Shown: piece by piece, positions 2,009-52,229 of the stretch | Layout of the letters: each line of letters starts with the position of its first letter | Position numbering within the stretch: position 1 is the stretch's first letter | Assembly: GCF_029360705.1 (NCBI RefSeq) | Contig: NZ_JARKMX010000008.1 | Location: 3,665,479-3,729,478, forward strand | Source of the DNA: Paraflavitalea pollutisoli | GTDB lineage: Bacteria > Bacteroidota > Bacteroidia > Chitinophagales > Chitinophagaceae | DNA: 64,000 bases | Direction: 5' to 3' | The notes under the pieces: generated by a model | Databases searched by the model: none | Seen by the model: the letters and a program-made list of their open reading frames with translations, nothing else | Told to the model about the DNA's origin: nothing | Position numbers and translations under genes: made by a program

Positions 2009-5000
2009 TTAGAAACTGACACGAAGATTGGCACCGATCTGGCGGGTAGCAGACAACTGCCCCCCCTCCCGATAAAACACTTCCAGCTCAGAAGGATCTA
2101 CACCGTACTTCTTGGTATTGGCCCAGATCAGCCAGGCGTTTTGTACGATGATCCCCAGATTAACACTCTTGGCAACCTTCAGGTGCCGCAACACGCTAAC
2201 GGGTAGACTGTAGCCAAATCTCACCTCACGCAGTTTGATATAAGAAGCATCGAGCAATACATTGCGCGCATCCATCTGGCGGGCAGTATACCAATAAGCG
2301 CGGGCTGCTACATACCGGTTGTTGACAGTTCCTTTACCATCATTGAATACACCGGGTATCAGGATGCCACCACTACCTGTGTTGCCATTGGCAAACGTCC
2401 AGGAGCCGGGATAGTCCCGCCAGTCATGTCCCTTGTCATTCAAACCAACGGTTTCCTCCGAAAGGCCCGCCCCGGTGTTGAAGTTCCTGGTCTCCGAATA
2501 GAAAAGGCCGCCGCTCTGAAAATCGATCGAGAAAGTAAGATCAAAGCCTTTAAACTTCATGGCATTGAACATACCTCCCGTCCACTCGGGTAATACCTGG
2601 CCGATATCCTGGTTGATATCATACTCAGGCAAGCCGGTAGATGTTTTTGTACCGGCGGAATTCACACTGTAATTGATCAACGTTTGCCCGGTGGCGGGAT
2701 CTGTACGCCATTTACGACCTACATACATGCCCCACTCAGCATCCACACGGTGTTCAAGTCTTGTATCGTATCGATTGGTAGCATACAGGTAAGTAGGCAA
2801 CCCGGGATAGAGCTCCTTTACCTTGTTGCTGTTACGCGCCCAGTTGAGCGTAATATCCCAGGAGAAATCCCTGGAAGCAACCGGCGTGGCGTTCAAGGAG
2901 ATTTCGATACCCTGACTTACAATCTTACCGGCATTGATCTGCACAGAAGAGAATCCACTGGAAGAGGAGACATCTACGGGCAGGATCTGATCGGTATTGT
3001 TGTTCTGGTACACGGCAACATCCAGTCCGAAACGGTTGAAGAACCGCAACTCAATCCCCGCCTCATAGGCACTCGTGAGTGAGGGCTTTATCTCTATCTT
3101 CCCACCACGCAGCCGGTCACCGATGGCTGTAGATGGATTGCTACCATAGAAAGATCCGATATTGATAGCTGTGTTCAATTGATGCGGGTCAAGATCCGAA
3201 CCCACCGATGCATAAGACAGCCGCAGCTTACCAAAGGTCAGCGTATTGGTTACGCCCGACGTCTTCAGCAATTCGGTAAAAATAAAGCTCGTGCTGACAG
3301 AAGGATACAGGTAAGAATTGTCATTGACCGGTAAAGCAGAAGACCAGTCGTTGCGCAAAGTACCTTCCAGGAAGATGATATCATCATACCCAACCGATAC
3401 CTTACCATAGATACTGTTCACCCGCTTCTTGGCGTAAGAACGCAGGGCCGTAGGCCGTGAAATTGACGCCCGCAGGTCAAAATAGTTGGGCGCACTCAAA
3501 CCACCAGCCGTCGCCTCCGACAACTGACTATAATATTCCTGGCGGATATTGCCCCCGACCAGACCATCCAGGGAGAAAACACCAAACTTGTTCTTGTAGT
3601 AGAGGTTCGACTCATAGTTCATTTCACGGTAGTTGTTTTGCAACAACTCGTAACCATCCAGGTTCAGGCCGCCGGTGGCTACCCGGAAGTCGTTTTCATT
3701 ACCATAGCTGTTGATACGGGCGTAAGACTGTAGGTTCCAGTGATTGTTGAACTTGATATTGAGCCCTACGTTACCGACCAGCCGGTTGTTACGCTGTGTG
3801 CCGTAATTTTCGTTGACGACAAAGTATGGATTGTCCCAATACTGCGGTACACTGTACTCGCTGAATACGCTGGTGGCATTGGGATCACCGATATTCCAGG
3901 AGTTGAGGCTGCCATCACTTTCCCGGTAGCGTTTCATACGCTTGATGTCCAGTTGACGCTGAAACCACTGGTTGAAGTTTTGCTGAATATTCAACCCGTC
4001 GAGCCGGTAGCCTTCCAATGGTTTACCTTTTGTATTGGAAGCACTGTAAGTGATGTCCGTCGATACGGTAATGTATTTACCTACATCAACGGCCCCGTTC
4101 ACCCCAAATTGGTTTTGGTCTCTTTTGGAGTTGGGCAATACCAGTGTTCTGTTTTGATTGCCATAGGTAGCCCGGAAGTTGTAGGTTTCACCACCGCTAT
4201 AGAAACTGATGCTATTGTTCAGGTTCACACCCGTTTCAAAGAAGTCTTTCACGTTGTTGGGCTGGGCCACCATCGCGAAGGTTTTGCCAAACTCATCACC
4301 GGGATACCAGCTGTAATAGGGCCGGTATTGCGATCCGTCGATCTTGGGTCCCCAGCTTTCATCTGCTCCGTACTCCAGCATCCTTTGTCCTTCAAAAGAG
4401 GCCCAGGAGGCAGGATGCTTCGATGGATCATAACGGAAAATATAATAGCCCTGGTCATCGAGGTAATCGCCGCCCGTCCAACCTGAGGGATTCAACGACC
4501 TTTTACTCGTGTAGTTCGACGAATAGCCACCTGCATATTGGTTTTGATAAGGTGGGATAATAGAAAGCTTCTCCATCGTGACACCCAGGTTCACGTCTAC
4601 TCCACTCACTCTTTTACGGGTGCCTTTTTTCGTTGTTATGATCACAGCGCCATTGGCAGCCCGCTGACCATACAGCGCCGTTGCTGCCGGCCCTTTCAGC
4701 ACAGATATATTGTCAATGTTATCCATGATCACAGCGCTTTGACTGGTGATGGTACCATCGACCACAAAAATGGGCGGTTGAGGACCAAGACCCGTAACAC
4801 CACGGATCAGGATCTCCGCATTGTCGTAGGTGGAACTGGGTGAACCTACGAGTTGCACACCCGCTACTTTACCCGCCAGCGAAGAGCTGACGTCGAGCGA
4901 TTTGGCAACCGTTACGTTCTCCCCTTTCACTTCCTGTACAGCGTACCCAAGGGCCTTCTTTTCCCTTCTGATACCCATGGCGGTAACAACCACCTCATCC

Positions 5001-34052: not shown

Positions 34053-34130
34053 TTGTATAGACGCTAAACTAAGCATTTGGCTGATAGCAAGTGGCTACCT
34101 ATTTTTTTACCTGCGTAACTCATAGCCTCT

Positions 34131-34170
34131 TTGCCTCGATGCCTAGATGCCTCGTTGCCTCCTTGCCTAC
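34131..34170 (+). repeat. Five 8-bp repeat units, WTGCCTNN family
   Basis: Units ttgcctcg, atgcctag, atgcctcg, ttgcctcc and ttgcctac run without gaps and include the stop codon of the minus-strand gene ending at 34167. The first 14 bases match 27686-27699 exactly. Confidence 0.65.
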
Positions 34171-47294: not shown

Positions 47295-47891
47295 TCAGTG
47301 CAGGTCGGAGGAGATCAGCTTCATGAACTCGCTGCGTGTTTCGTTCTTTTCAAACTCGCCCCAGAAAGCGGAGGTCGTGGTGACCGAGTTCTGCTTTTGT
47401 ACCCCCCGCATCATCATGCACAGGTGCGACGCTTCGATCACGACCGCTACGCCCAGTGGATGCAAGGTTTCTTTCAGTGCATCCCGGATCTGCGTGGTGA
47501 GGCGTTCCTGCACCTGCAAACGGCGTGCATATACATCCACCACCCGGGCAATCTTACTAAGGCCCGTAATGTAACCATTGGGAATATAGGCCACATGCGC
47601 CTTGCCATAGAAAGGCAACATATGGTGTTCACACATACTGTACAACTCGATATCCTTTACCACGATCATTTCGCTCACCGACTCATGAAACTTCGCCGAG
47701 TTGAGGATGGCATGTGCATCCTGTCCATACCCTTGTGTCAGGAACTGCATGGCCTTGGCCATCCGTTCAGGCGTTTTGACCAACCCTTCCCGGTTCGCAT
47801 CTTCCCCCAGTAGGGTCAGGGCATTGCGATAGTTTTCAACGAGACCTAAGGTCACTTGTTCGTCGTATTCTTCTGTTTTACTATATGCCAT
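47295..47891 (-). CDS. folE: GTP cyclohydrolase I
   Basis: This 198-aa type I enzyme converts GTP to 7,8-dihydroneopterin triphosphate, the entry compound for folate, queuosine and tetrahydrobiopterin pathways. Zinc ligands are visible as Cys87 and His90 in [12 protein letters not shown] and Cys158 in [48 protein letters not shown] is the core signature. It lies 43 bases after the first of two PTPS/QueD-type genes on the same strand, and its product is their substrate, so these genes form a functional cluster. Confidence 0.97.
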
Positions 47892-47934
47892 ACTATATTA
47901 TTTCAGTTTCGAATATACTGATGCCGGTTTGGTG

Positions 47935-48351
47935 TTACCCAACAGGATATTCTACAAAGTTCCTTTCAGTTTCATACAGCCTCACCTGCAGGTCGTATTG
48001 CACATCTATCTTCGGTCGCAACAATTCATAGATCAGTATGCAGATATTTTCGGCAGTAGGATTGACGGTTTTGAAAAACGGGGTATCGAGGTTCAGGTTC
48101 TTGTGGTCCAGGTGTTCCAGCACTTCTGCCTTGATCAGATCGCTCAGCAGCTTCAGATCCATCACATAGCCGGTCACCGGATCGGGCTCACCCACCAGCT
48201 TAACGATCACCTCATAATTATGACCATGAAAATTAGGATTGTTACACTTGCCAAACACGGCATCATTCTTCGCCATATCCCATTGGGGATTATACAACCG
48301 ATGCGCTGCGTTGAAATGCTCCTTCCGGTAAACTGCTACTTTCTTGCTCAT
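47935..48351 (-). CDS. 6-pyruvoyl-tetrahydropterin synthase / QueD family protein (copy 1)
   Basis: This 138-aa enzyme acts on dihydroneopterin triphosphate. Zinc-binding His17 (FNAAHRLY), His42 and His44 (FHGHNYE) and the catalytic residues Cys36 (FGKCNNPN), Asp82-His83 (LDHKNLNLD) and Glu127 (YETER) are all present. The FGKCNNPN..HGHNY and DHKNL stretches look like animal-type PTPS as well as QueD, so it could make either 6-carboxy-tetrahydropterin (queuosine) or 6-pyruvoyl-tetrahydropterin. It is followed by folE and preceded by a paralog 110 bases upstream, with about half of the aligned residues the same by eye. Confidence 0.9.
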   Translation of the reverse strand: MSKKVAVYRKEHFNAAHRLYNPQWDMAKNDAVFGKCNNPNFHGHNYEVIVKLVGEPDPVTGYVMDLKLLSDLIKAEVLEHLDHKNLNLDTPFFKTVNPTAENICILIYELLRPKIDVQYDLQVRLYETERNFVEYPVG

Positions 48352-48461
48352 GTTTCAAAATACTAATATAAGAATAGTATGGGGTGCAACAATGATTCAG
48401 ACCGGACTTAACAGGCTGGCCGACTATTTGTTCAACCTGATCATAGCCTGTCCTATCCAAT

Positions 48462-48872
48462 TTATTCGCCAAAATACTCCACGTAGATCCGTGGCGTTTC
48501 ATAGAGTTTGATACAATGCAATTGCACAGCAGCAGGCAGGTGCGGCTGAAGCTGTTGCCAGATAGCAATAGCGAGGTTCTCCGTAGAGCACATCTGCCCC
48601 TGCATGAAATCTACATCCAGGTTCAGGTTTTTGTGGTCCAGCTTATCGAGTACATGCTGTTCGATGAGCTTGCTCAGGGCTTTTACATCATATAAAAAGC
48701 CGGTATCCGGATCGGGGTTTCCTTTGATCGTTACCAGCAGCTCATAGTTATGGCCATGCCAATGCTCATTGGCGCATTTACCAAATACGGTTTCGTTCTT
48801 CTCTTTACTCCACTTAGGGTTATACAGCTTATGCGCTGCATTAAAATGTTCAACACGGGTGAGATACACCAT
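48462..48872 (-). CDS. 6-pyruvoyl-tetrahydropterin synthase / QueD family protein (copy 2)
   Basis: This 136-aa paralog of the next gene also keeps every key residue. His14, His39 and His41 bind zinc, Cys33 lies in FGKCANEH, Asp79-His80 in LDHKNLNLD and Glu125 in YETPR. It differs from copy 1 around the Cys (CANEHWHGH against CNNPNFHGH) and around residues 88-97. One copy may serve queuosine synthesis and the other a pterin pathway; the sequence alone does not tell which. It is first in the putative unit copy 2 - copy 1 - folE, with a promoter box about 80 bases upstream. Confidence 0.9.
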   Translation of the reverse strand: MVYLTRVEHFNAAHKLYNPKWSKEKNETVFGKCANEHWHGHNYELLVTIKGNPDPDTGFLYDVKALSKLIEQHVLDKLDHKNLNLDVDFMQGQMCSTENLAIAIWQQLQPHLPAAVQLHCIKLYETPRIYVEYFGE

Positions 48873-50476: not shown

Positions 50477-51793
50477 CTATTTCTTCAATGCCTTGGCATA
50501 TGCTTCCAGGCAACGCTTGCGCGCTTCTTCATGTACCACAATGGGCTTGGCATAGGTCAGCTCTTCCAGCTCCGGCACCCATTTGCGGATGTATTTCAGA
50601 TCGGGGTCAAACTTCTGGGTTTGCAGGTGCGGATTGAAAACGCGGAAATAGGGTGCCGCATCGCAACCACTGCCTGCGGCCCATTGCCAGCCGCCATTGT
50701 TGGCCGCCAGGTCGAAGTCGAGTAGTTTTTCCGCGAAATAAGCCTCTCCCCAACGCCAGTCGATCAGCAGGTGCTTCGCCAAAAAAGAAGCCACGATCAT
50801 CCGCACCCGGTTGTGCATAAAACCAGTCGTATTCAGCTCGCGCATACCCGCATCCACAATAGGATAACCTGTTTGTCCCTGGCACCAGCGTTCAAATTCC
50901 TGCTCATTGTTGCGCCAGCGTATCTGCTCATACTCCGGCTTAAAGGCATGCCCCTTACCTACCTGGGGAAAATGCCAGAGGATCGCGTGGTAAAAGTCGC
51001 GCCAGATCAGTTCATTCAAAAACGTTTCATTCGCCTCCTTCGCTTTGGTCGCCAGTTTACGAATGCTGATGGTGCCGAAACGCAGGTGCACGCCCAGGTG
51101 AGAAGTACCATGAATAGCCGGATAATCTCGCTGCTCCTGGTATTTGCTTAACAACTCTTCACGCACCGTTTTGGCGGGAAAATCATGGTCCGTTTCTTTA
51201 AATCCCATCGAAGCAAGCGACGGTATACGCCTGGGTGACTGCTGGTAAAAGTGCTTGTGGTATTCTTTAGTGGGATAAGACTGCAGGTAAAACTCCGTGA
51301 GCGTGGCCTTCCAACGTTTGCTATAGGGCGTGAAGACGGTATATGGCTTTCCGTCATCTTTCACCACTTCTCCTTTTTCAAAGATCACCTGATCCTTGTA
51401 CGTATGAAAAGAGATGCCATGGTCATTGAACAGCTCGCTCATGGCCTGATCGCGCTCCCGCGCATAGGGCTCGTAGTCGTGGTTGGTATACACCCGTTGT
51501 ACCGGATACTTGTCAATTAATTGGGTGAACACTTCAGCCGGTGTACCATAATGCACTTCCAGGGAACTGCCCAGTTTCTCCAATTGTTCCTGCATCCCCA
51601 CCAACGCTTCGCGTATGAAGCTGACCCGGCGATCGGCTTTTTCCTCCAGCTGATCCAGGATGTTACGGTCGAAAATAAAGATGGGTATCACCGGCGCTCC
51701 CTGCTTAAGGGCGTGGTAAAGGCCCGCATTGTCATCCAGGCGCAGGTCGCGCCGGAACCAGAACAGGTTGACAGCTGTTTGTTTTTTACTCAT
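50477..51793 (-). CDS. Deoxyribodipyrimidine photolyase (cryptochrome/photolyase family)
   Basis: This 438-aa flavoprotein repairs cyclobutane pyrimidine dimers with blue light. The N-terminal photolyase alpha/beta domain (VNLFWFRRDLRLDDNAGLYHAL to about residue 130) is followed by the helical FAD domain. That domain carries the signatures TGYPIVDAGMRELNTTGFMHNRVRM, LLIDWRWGEAYFAEKLLDFD and NNGGWQWAAGSGCDAAPYFRVFNP. These fit class I CPD photolyases, though cryptochrome function cannot be excluded. I use the ATG at 51793, which places the start directly before the photolyase domain. The stop abuts mqnD's stop. Confidence 0.92.
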   Translation of the reverse strand: MSKKQTAVNLFWFRRDLRLDDNAGLYHALKQGAPVIPIFIFDRNILDQLEEKADRRVSFIREALVGMQEQLEKLGSSLEVHYGTPAEVFTQLIDKYPVQRVYTNHDYEPYARERDQAMSELFNDHGISFHTYKDQVIFEKGEVVKDDGKPYTVFTPYSKRWKATLTEFYLQSYPTKEYHKHFYQQSPRRIPSLASMGFKETDHDFPAKTVREELLSKYQEQRDYPAIHGTSHLGVHLRFGTISIRKLATKAKEANETFLNELIWRDFYHAILWHFPQVGKGHAFKPEYEQIRWRNNEQEFERWCQGQTGYPIVDAGMRELNTTGFMHNRVRMIVASFLAKHLLIDWRWGEAYFAEKLLDFDLAANNGGWQWAAGSGCDAAPYFRVFNPHLQTQKFDPDLKYIRKWVPELEELTYAKPIVVHEEARKRCLEAYAKALKK

Positions 51794-52020
51794 GCGTTGC
51801 CAAGATAGCAACAAACGCTGTGCATCAACCCTTTGTGTAGTTGAATTGGAACGAACCATGCAAACCCTTAAACAGTCGACACCCCAGCTTTCGATGGTCC
51901 TCCTTGGCCTCTTTCAGCTGCCTTTCGGCACACTGACGCTACTTATACATTGCCCGAAATCATACCCCGGATCGCCAGGCAACCGGCTTTAACGCCGTTT
52001 CCGATGCAGGGATAATTGGA

Positions 52021-52060
52021 GGATAACCCGTAGATAAGCCGTAGATAACCCGTATATGAC
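52021..52060 (-). repeat. Left array of 11-bp repeats, inverted relative to the right array
   Basis: Units ccgtagataag (52028-52038), ccgtagataac (52039-52049) and ccgtatatgac (52050-52060) are preceded by a partial unit (ggataac). Each is the reverse complement of the unit in the right array, with decay towards the centre. Confidence 0.8.
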
Positions 52061-52075
52061 CTGATTTTTAATAAG

Positions 52076-52146
52076 TACGGCTTATCTACAGCTTATCTAC
52101 GGCTTATCTACGGCTTATCTACGGCTTATCTACGGCTTATCTATCT
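52076..52146 (+). repeat. Right array of 11-bp repeats
   Basis: A partial tacgg is followed by cttatctacag (52081-52091), four identical cttatctacgg units (52092-52135) and a degenerate last unit cttatctatct (52136-52146). The period of 11 is close to one helical turn. The core ttatctac differs at two of nine places from a DnaA box. It can pair with the left array across a 15-base spacer. Confidence 0.9.
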
Positions 52147-52229
52147 ATTCAACAAGAAGTTTCCCCCTGCGGAGGCGCATTGTTCACCGTTTTTGGTAGC
52201 TGTTGTCGGTTAAAAGTGCTGGCGGCGTG

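Follow-up and report, generated by a model that had tools for sequence, protein, structure and literature searches.

An array of inverted 11-bp repeats in Paraflavitalea pollutisoli belongs to a dispersed hairpin family associated with genes of an undescribed protein family

Results

Inverted 11-bp repeat arrays between photolyase-like and aminotransferase-like genes

The window, i.e. the whole stretch of 64,000 nucleotides of Paraflavitalea pollutisoli DNA analysed here, contains two facing arrays of an 11-bp repeat in the interval (51860-52229) between a photolyase-like ORF (50477-51859, minus strand) and an aminotransferase-like ORF (from 52230, minus strand). The long arm (52080-52144, minus strand) is the direct-repeat arm of what is described below as a subfamily A element. 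Its unit reads GSTTATCTAC, and its six units, as read from the sequence, lie at 52080-52089, 52091-52100, 52102-52111, 52113-52122, 52124-52133 and, as a variant last unit, 52135-52144. The short inverted arm (52019-52061, minus strand) comprises three units (52030-52039, 52041-52050 and 52052-52061) and one partial outer unit (52019-52028), likewise read from the sequence. The spacer between the arms (52062-52079, minus strand) has the length typical of the family, 18 bp, and a diverged sequence. A preliminary description of this DNA had reported facing arrays of six and three units, which was borne out; its spacer of 15 bases has to be corrected to 18, and it missed the partial fourth unit on the left.

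Tandem Repeats Finder, shuffles and direct reading agree that the arrays are real. The program delimited the left arm at 52022-52054 (period 11, 3.0 copies, 90% matches) and the right arm at 52076-52143 (period 11, 6.2 copies, 96%). With at most one mismatch, CTTATCTACGG occurs eight times in the window, seven of them within the array, a number reached in none of 100 dinucleotide shuffles of the window (mean 0.72). Folded as single-stranded DNA, positions 51990-52160 yield -34.4 kcal/mol compared to -15.2 (sd 2.96) for shuffled sequences (z -6.49); none of 200 shuffles equalled this stability. An Rfam search of the window gave no matches at gathering score, and no records matching the window array were found in plasmid and phage collections.

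Two further features of the window were recorded. A tandem 8-bp unit, GCCTCGTT, is present in 5.5 copies at 34125-34168, and the region 47295-48872 harbours what we take to be a GTP cyclohydrolase I-like ORF beside two tandem 6-pyruvoyl-tetrahydropterin synthase-like ORFs (47935-48351 and 48462-48872).

Genomic distribution of the arrays

A search of the genome and its relatives for the 11-mer in tandem, proposed as a check in the preliminary description, returned matches at many dispersed places. Five places of genome G000, to which the window belongs (8.76 Mb, 16 contigs), carry the plain pattern, and a covariance model built from 57 aligned copies (R1) detected at least about a dozen copies, the added ones being more diverged. 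R1 recognised the window array on the minus strand (52041-52122, E 1.6e-9) and also on the plus strand (52019-52089, E 7.9e-8). The four congeners (G001-G004) matched R1 as well, G002 with at least eight strong copies and G003 weakly. As the best 150 candidates were scored per genome, all R1 counts are lower bounds. A two-unit pattern matched 7 of 195 genomes of a family-wide sample. In a scan of named genome contigs, 65 stretches matched, every one of them from a record titled as a member of Bacteroidota; among these are many Chitinophaga as well as Chryseosolibacter indicus, Paraflavitalea sp. CAU 1676 and MAGs. In C. pinensis YS-16 a single query retrieved 20 places, its own place included.

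None of 81 distinct elements lies inside an ORF (ORFs of at least 80 aa, picked longest-first). No functional theme emerged among the 25 commonest Pfam families listed for 135 flanking ORFs (145 listed minus ten short ones). Targeting of terminators was considered and rejected. Terminator-like hairpins point in at 17 of 90 elements on the left and 13 of 90 on the right, and point away at 7 and 4, respectively; these counts were read as ordinary intergenic geometry. GC skew, calculated for 20 stretches of 20 kb from G002, gave no clean switch with respect to origin and terminus.

Anatomy and subfamilies

The 81 distinct elements share a common plan: often about five direct 11-bp units, a spacer, usually of 16-18 bp and of the type GTaCCTATAgagaTAC, and one or two inverted units. 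The direct unit of the common type is GTAKATAASC+y. The long and the short arm are arranged the same way relative to the spacer in most of 57 copies, this set being those with a GTaCCTATAgagaTAC-type spacer and sufficiently long flanks; C. pinensis-like copies are nearly symmetric. The number of units differs between copies, and the window copy, with six and three units, is among the less typical ones. It is an ordinary gene-less member, of subfamily A, of this dispersed family of polar hairpin elements.

Relaxed searches revealed subfamilies with other units and the same plan: B (GTAKATRTCYc), C (GCGTAGATACa), D (GAGATAATCCa) and E (GTAGATATTCc). An inverted match of at least 10/11 was found in 43 of 48 elements of the genus, across all subfamilies, compared to 9 of 240 shuffles. 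In alignment A1 the innermost arms co-vary: 34 cells are changed on both sides, where shuffles have 21.8, and pairing extends to 89.4% of cells (85.8% when shuffled, at most 46% when slid); neither pairs altered on both sides (5 vs 4.2) nor further pair types outnumbered those of shuffles. The preliminary description had envisaged either a hairpin or cruciform or a set of helically phased protein sites. The co-variation of the inverted unit with the adjoining direct unit, and the inverted match kept in all subfamilies despite their differing units, lend support to both ideas. A base-4 pattern (G,T,T,G in units 1-4) was set aside: the window's genus has it, Chryseosolibacter has it for the most part, and Chitinophaga does not.

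A gene family adjoining the arrays

All-against-all comparison of the 135 array-flanking ORFs disclosed a family of genes, hereafter partner genes, which encode proteins of about 265 aa. A partner gene adjoins an array in G000, G002, G004, G153, G165 and Chryseosolibacter (twice, one of them cut), and also in Chitinophaga sp. SYP-B3965, a Chitinophaga MAG and C. pinensis. The earlier statement that no adjacent gene explains the array holds for the window copy; a gene with an upstream array of the window type lies elsewhere in the same genome (G000:C14:48403-49200). At E <=0.001, a partner profile (alignment A3, nine sequences) matched each genus genome 13 to 40 times, some of these matches being halves of one gene or N-terminal pieces alone.

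Arrays were scored as tandem identity at a lag of 11 bases (out of 33) within at most 350 bases upstream of the start codon. Among the 30 best partner loci, 23 reached 20/33 and 16 reached 24/33, compared to six and three, respectively, of 179 control ORFs taken from 20 stretches of G002. For the 17 closest paralogs in the genus (E <1e-60) the respective numbers were 16 and 11, and the single exception, L294, lies at a contig end that leaves only 84 bases upstream. The profile had been seeded with three of the 17; all 13 non-seed paralogs with enough upstream sequence reached 20/33. In the 16 close paralogs the array starts 174-208 bp before the ATG, and by eye it points towards the gene in every case. 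In a phylum-wide protein search, for which the best eight candidates were scored in most genomes, at least 26 of 296 genomes matched at E <=1e-10; among the distant relatives 9 of 28 loci reached 20/33 and five reached 24/33. The association of array and gene is therefore strong, being well established among close relatives and uneven among distant ones.

A more distant second tier of the partner superfamily (MAKQ...GTIDDISFYK...) was noted with several genes per genome (L300, L304, L308 and L317), which have 11-bp arrays of their own upstream. Another distant member, L327 (G486:C54), is preceded by a perfect 11-bp array (33/33 at lag 11).

Gene-less arrays match the gene-linked arrays of their own genome

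Gene-less arrays of the genus were compared with 16 gene-linked arrays as targets. The best match fell into the array's own genome for 23 of 32 (6.4 expected), and for 28 of 35 (7.4 expected) in an extended set to which L349-L352 had been added and in which one array was reclassified as gene-linked. L255, which carries a broken gene, was among the arrays scored. G002 has one close paralog, of type A, and all its eight arrays are of type A; the paralogs of G000 have arrays A (L293), B (L298) and C-like (L303), and G000 possesses arrays A, B and C; two C-type paralogs in G003 go along with C arrays. Of the nine misses, six were within 4.5 score units of the best own-genome array, and one (G000 C11) scored better by 9 against C arrays of other genomes. 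The remaining two, both of type A, belong to G001, in which the upstream part of the A-type gene L294 is cut off; the array at the start of contig C9 of G001 is probably the missing upstream array of this gene.

Signs of copying

Three 70-bp cores at different sites of G002 (L071-L073) are identical. In G001, two array-plus-gene units (L306 and L311) share 88.6% identity over a block that begins about 40 bp to the left of the array and ends with the stop codon, outside of which they are unrelated; units L307 and L312 of G004 have the same right limit, the stop codon. In this one genus, array and gene thus duplicate as one block ending at the stop codon. L255 consists of an array, the leader and the first 28 codons followed by the last codons in another frame, the middle of the gene being gone; it is the only one of 19 gene-less arrays tested that has clear gene remnants beside it. 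Leader-like similarity was clearly above 40 shuffles at G000 C15:4101 and at 7.83 Mb in G002, and slightly above shuffles at four further gene-less arrays; the gene end was absent in all six.

At the site of the window array, the corresponding intervals of G002 and G004 (L244 and L245) have no array. Gene order beside this site differs in G003, which makes the comparison uninformative there, and the photolyase had no match in G001. In Chitinophaga, the L153 interval is by eye about 0.93 kb shorter in strain S165, and YR627 has at this interval an array-like run with other units, likewise judged by eye. The arms of the elements are inverted; at the duplicated blocks and the L153 interval, neither a target-site duplication nor a clean empty site could be delimited. 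Nine sets of arrays, one of them consisting of gene-linked copies, occupy corresponding places in two or three species, as judged by homologous flanks on at least one side. Gene-linked type A copies of G000, G002 and G004 share flanks, as do type B copies of G000 and G004, which indicates that the gene seldom moves. Arrays of G002 showed 0.93-0.96 identity to copies of their own genome and 0.78-0.92 to orthologs. In the other genomes this difference was small or absent, i.e. homogenisation is clear in G002 only.

Sequence and predicted structure of the partner protein

The partner had no match over cut-off in Pfam (two sub-threshold hits in one search), NCBIfam (sub-threshold matches), PHROGs, PADLOC or PDB sequences. 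The G002 protein was not matched in plasmid or phage collections, nor the family profile in viral contigs. The predicted structure (pLDDT 85.0, pTM 0.76) comprises an N-terminal beta hairpin with helices and a C-terminal beta sandwich. Fold searches with VIA-align/Foldseek gave middling matches for the C-terminal half (best Z 5.2, 3.4 A, 103 residues); the best match of the N-terminal half had Z 3.3 at 7.6 A over 55 residues, and Foldseek returned none at E <=0.001. This lack of a structural match is no proof of a new fold. Among 53 partner relatives, D97 and R105 are invariant, E56, F57, G12 and G103 are kept in 52, and D79 in 49. No catalytic motif was recognised.

Discussion

Several hairpin types, each present also ahead of a cognate gene whose product belongs to no known kind of protein, suggest a repeat-and-protein system that has not been recognised so far. 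No description of the arrays or of the partner family was found in the literature searched, which was mostly open-access, and by title or abstract nothing on Bacteroidota was found for the unit GTAGATAAGC. We consider it somewhat probable that the window array is a gene-less copy of a two-part system composed of a partner gene with an upstream array and gene-less arrays elsewhere. The best-supported reading is that the partner binds the arrays and spreads or homogenises them. It builds on the array family and its anatomy, the association with the gene, the cognate matching, the block duplication in one genus and the lack of the array at the corresponding site of two congeners. A chromosomal gene of this undescribed family, with one array copy directly upstream, would encode a protein of about 265 aa specific for the 11-bp units of the cognate array type, which it would recognise either phased along one face of the helix or in the form of a folded strand. 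Through the upstream array the protein might control its own gene, and in trans it might help array copies to multiply or stay alike. The less common unit of array plus gene would duplicate as a block that extends from the array to the stop codon. Several observations speak against this reading. The partner lacks a known family, fold or recognised catalytic motif, neither a target-site duplication nor a clean empty site was delimited, the gene seldom moves, homogenisation is clear in G002 only, gene remnants are rare beside gene-less arrays, and the distant relatives mostly lack a clear array; the persistence of arrays at corresponding places in related species fits kept binding sites too.

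RAYT/REP (PMC6006769, PMC3733652) is the closest known system in way of life. Like the arrays, REP/REPIN sequences are short, dispersed, intergenic palindromes of several types per genome, each type with a gene that lies beside one copy and mostly stays at a stable place. They differ in being 20-40-bp stem-loops with a 5' GTAG foot instead of 11-bp direct units plus an inverted unit; in addition, the array described here lies upstream of its gene at a nearly fixed distance, and unlike RAYT (TnpA_REP) the partner has no Y1/HUH match. The system is therefore best read as REPtron-like with an unrelated partner protein, for which DNA binding and mobility are presumed. Array-plus-gene units, gene-less copies and one internally deleted copy (L255) are also reminiscent of MITEs and their parent transposons; however, no known transposase, no target-site duplication and, just 3' of the stop codon, no matching repeat were seen. 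Plasmid iterons and parC-type centromeres likewise consist of direct repeats of about 11 bp beside a gene for a small protein. In contrast to these, the arrays are chromosomal and dispersed and possess an inverted unit and a spacer, and plasmid, phage and viral collections contained no counterpart of the window array, the G002 protein or the family profile.

A bolder version of the favoured reading, which we put forward tentatively, sees here a new class of mobile or self-maintaining element in Bacteroidota. Its protein, which lacks a known fold and a recognised catalytic motif, would recognise the polar hairpins with their 11-bp units and either spread them or keep them homogeneous. The autonomous unit would then extend from the array to the stop codon, and each paralog would have its own array type, as in RAYT/REP, with unrelated descent. 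The Bacteroidota superfamily concerned, which is unannotated in the libraries searched, would acquire a DNA partner and with it functions open to experiment. Should array copies be multiplied in trans, a protein unlike known transposases would have arrived independently at the lifestyle of REP-RAYT. The pairing of paralogs and array types offers a ready-made system for the study of co-evolution between a protein and its DNA sites.

The foremost alternative, which we regard as unlikely, is a static network in which the partner is a DNA-binding protein for chromosome structure or expression, gene-less arrays are kept sites, and arrays change in step with the protein as its binding specificity co-evolves. 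The nine sets of arrays at corresponding places agree with such a network, as does the core of L121/L172, which among the positions listed is better conserved than the adjoining bases. At one C. pinensis/YR627 site, arrays with different units seem by eye to be present in both. Against kept sites, placement is not significantly promoter-like: 35 of 60 downstream genes are co-oriented with the array (two-sided p 0.25; ten gene-linked copies excluded), and of 66 copies for which both neighbours and a polarity are available, 13 sit between convergent genes. Moreover, copying or loss is needed to account for cores that are identical at different sites and for corresponding sites that lack an array.

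Type III toxin-antitoxin systems (ToxIN, CptIN, TenpIN) consist of tandem repeats, a hairpin and then one protein gene. The same succession in one direction is found here, and a similar system, in which transcripts of the upstream repeats would bind the protein, was considered; we judge it improbable. Pairing of the innermost arms above the shuffled level would suit an RNA, as would the excess of G-T over A-C departures on the gene-sense strand (34 vs 21), yet subfamily B has, by eye, A-C departures on its sense strand. The unit of only 11 bases, the inverted units and the many gene-less arrays, which have no significant strand preference towards their neighbours, also set the family apart from type III systems. 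The partner gave no match over cut-off in Pfam, NCBIfam or PADLOC and no clear one in the fold searches.

A satellite formed by slippage and devoid of function is a very improbable origin; the number of units does vary between copies, but spacer length, polarity and the inverted unit recur in two bacterial orders, and the distance to the cognate gene is nearly fixed. Identical unordered arrays scattered at random, named in the preliminary description as the case that would speak for such a satellite, were not what was found: although scattered, the copies have an ordered and mostly polar build and are linked to a cognate gene.

The same description had likened the repeat to a DnaA box, the consensus of which is TTATCCACA. 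A cluster of such boxes comparable to datA or DARS is extremely unlikely. TTATCTACA differs from the consensus by one base and TTATCTACG by two, and the window array is located about 84 kb from dnaA; however, the window units read TTATCTACG/A and not TTATCCACA, copies are spread over the genome, and the units of other subfamilies with this anatomy differ considerably (GAGATAATCCA, GCGTAGATACA, GTAGATATCCC).

Mobilisation of the arrays as REP elements by a Y1 (RAYT) transposase is hardly credible and is refuted as a general explanation. The arrays are dispersed intergenic palindromes with GTAG, and Y1 genes exist in all five genus genomes, but two adjacent A-type units were found near none of the 12 Y1 loci of the genus and none of 24 Y1 loci elsewhere (about 1.5-3 kb on each side where available), and six array-bearing Chitinophaga genomes had no PF01797 matches, while 6 of 12 searched genomes do match.

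Among the Y1 genes of the genus, those at L177-L180 and L187 (five genus genomes) encode a Y1/HUH protein of about 142 aa and are not linked to arrays. At L177 and L179 this gene lies between ORFs that are presumably DAHP-synthase-like and 3-dehydroquinate-synthase-like. The protein looks domesticated and resembles subclass 1.2 as defined in PMC6006769. At L183 (around 2300-3250; G001:C4) a Y1 gene is flanked on both sides by a palindrome of the GAGGCTTGCAGCCTCG type, and the two likely form a true RAYT-REP pair in the same genus.
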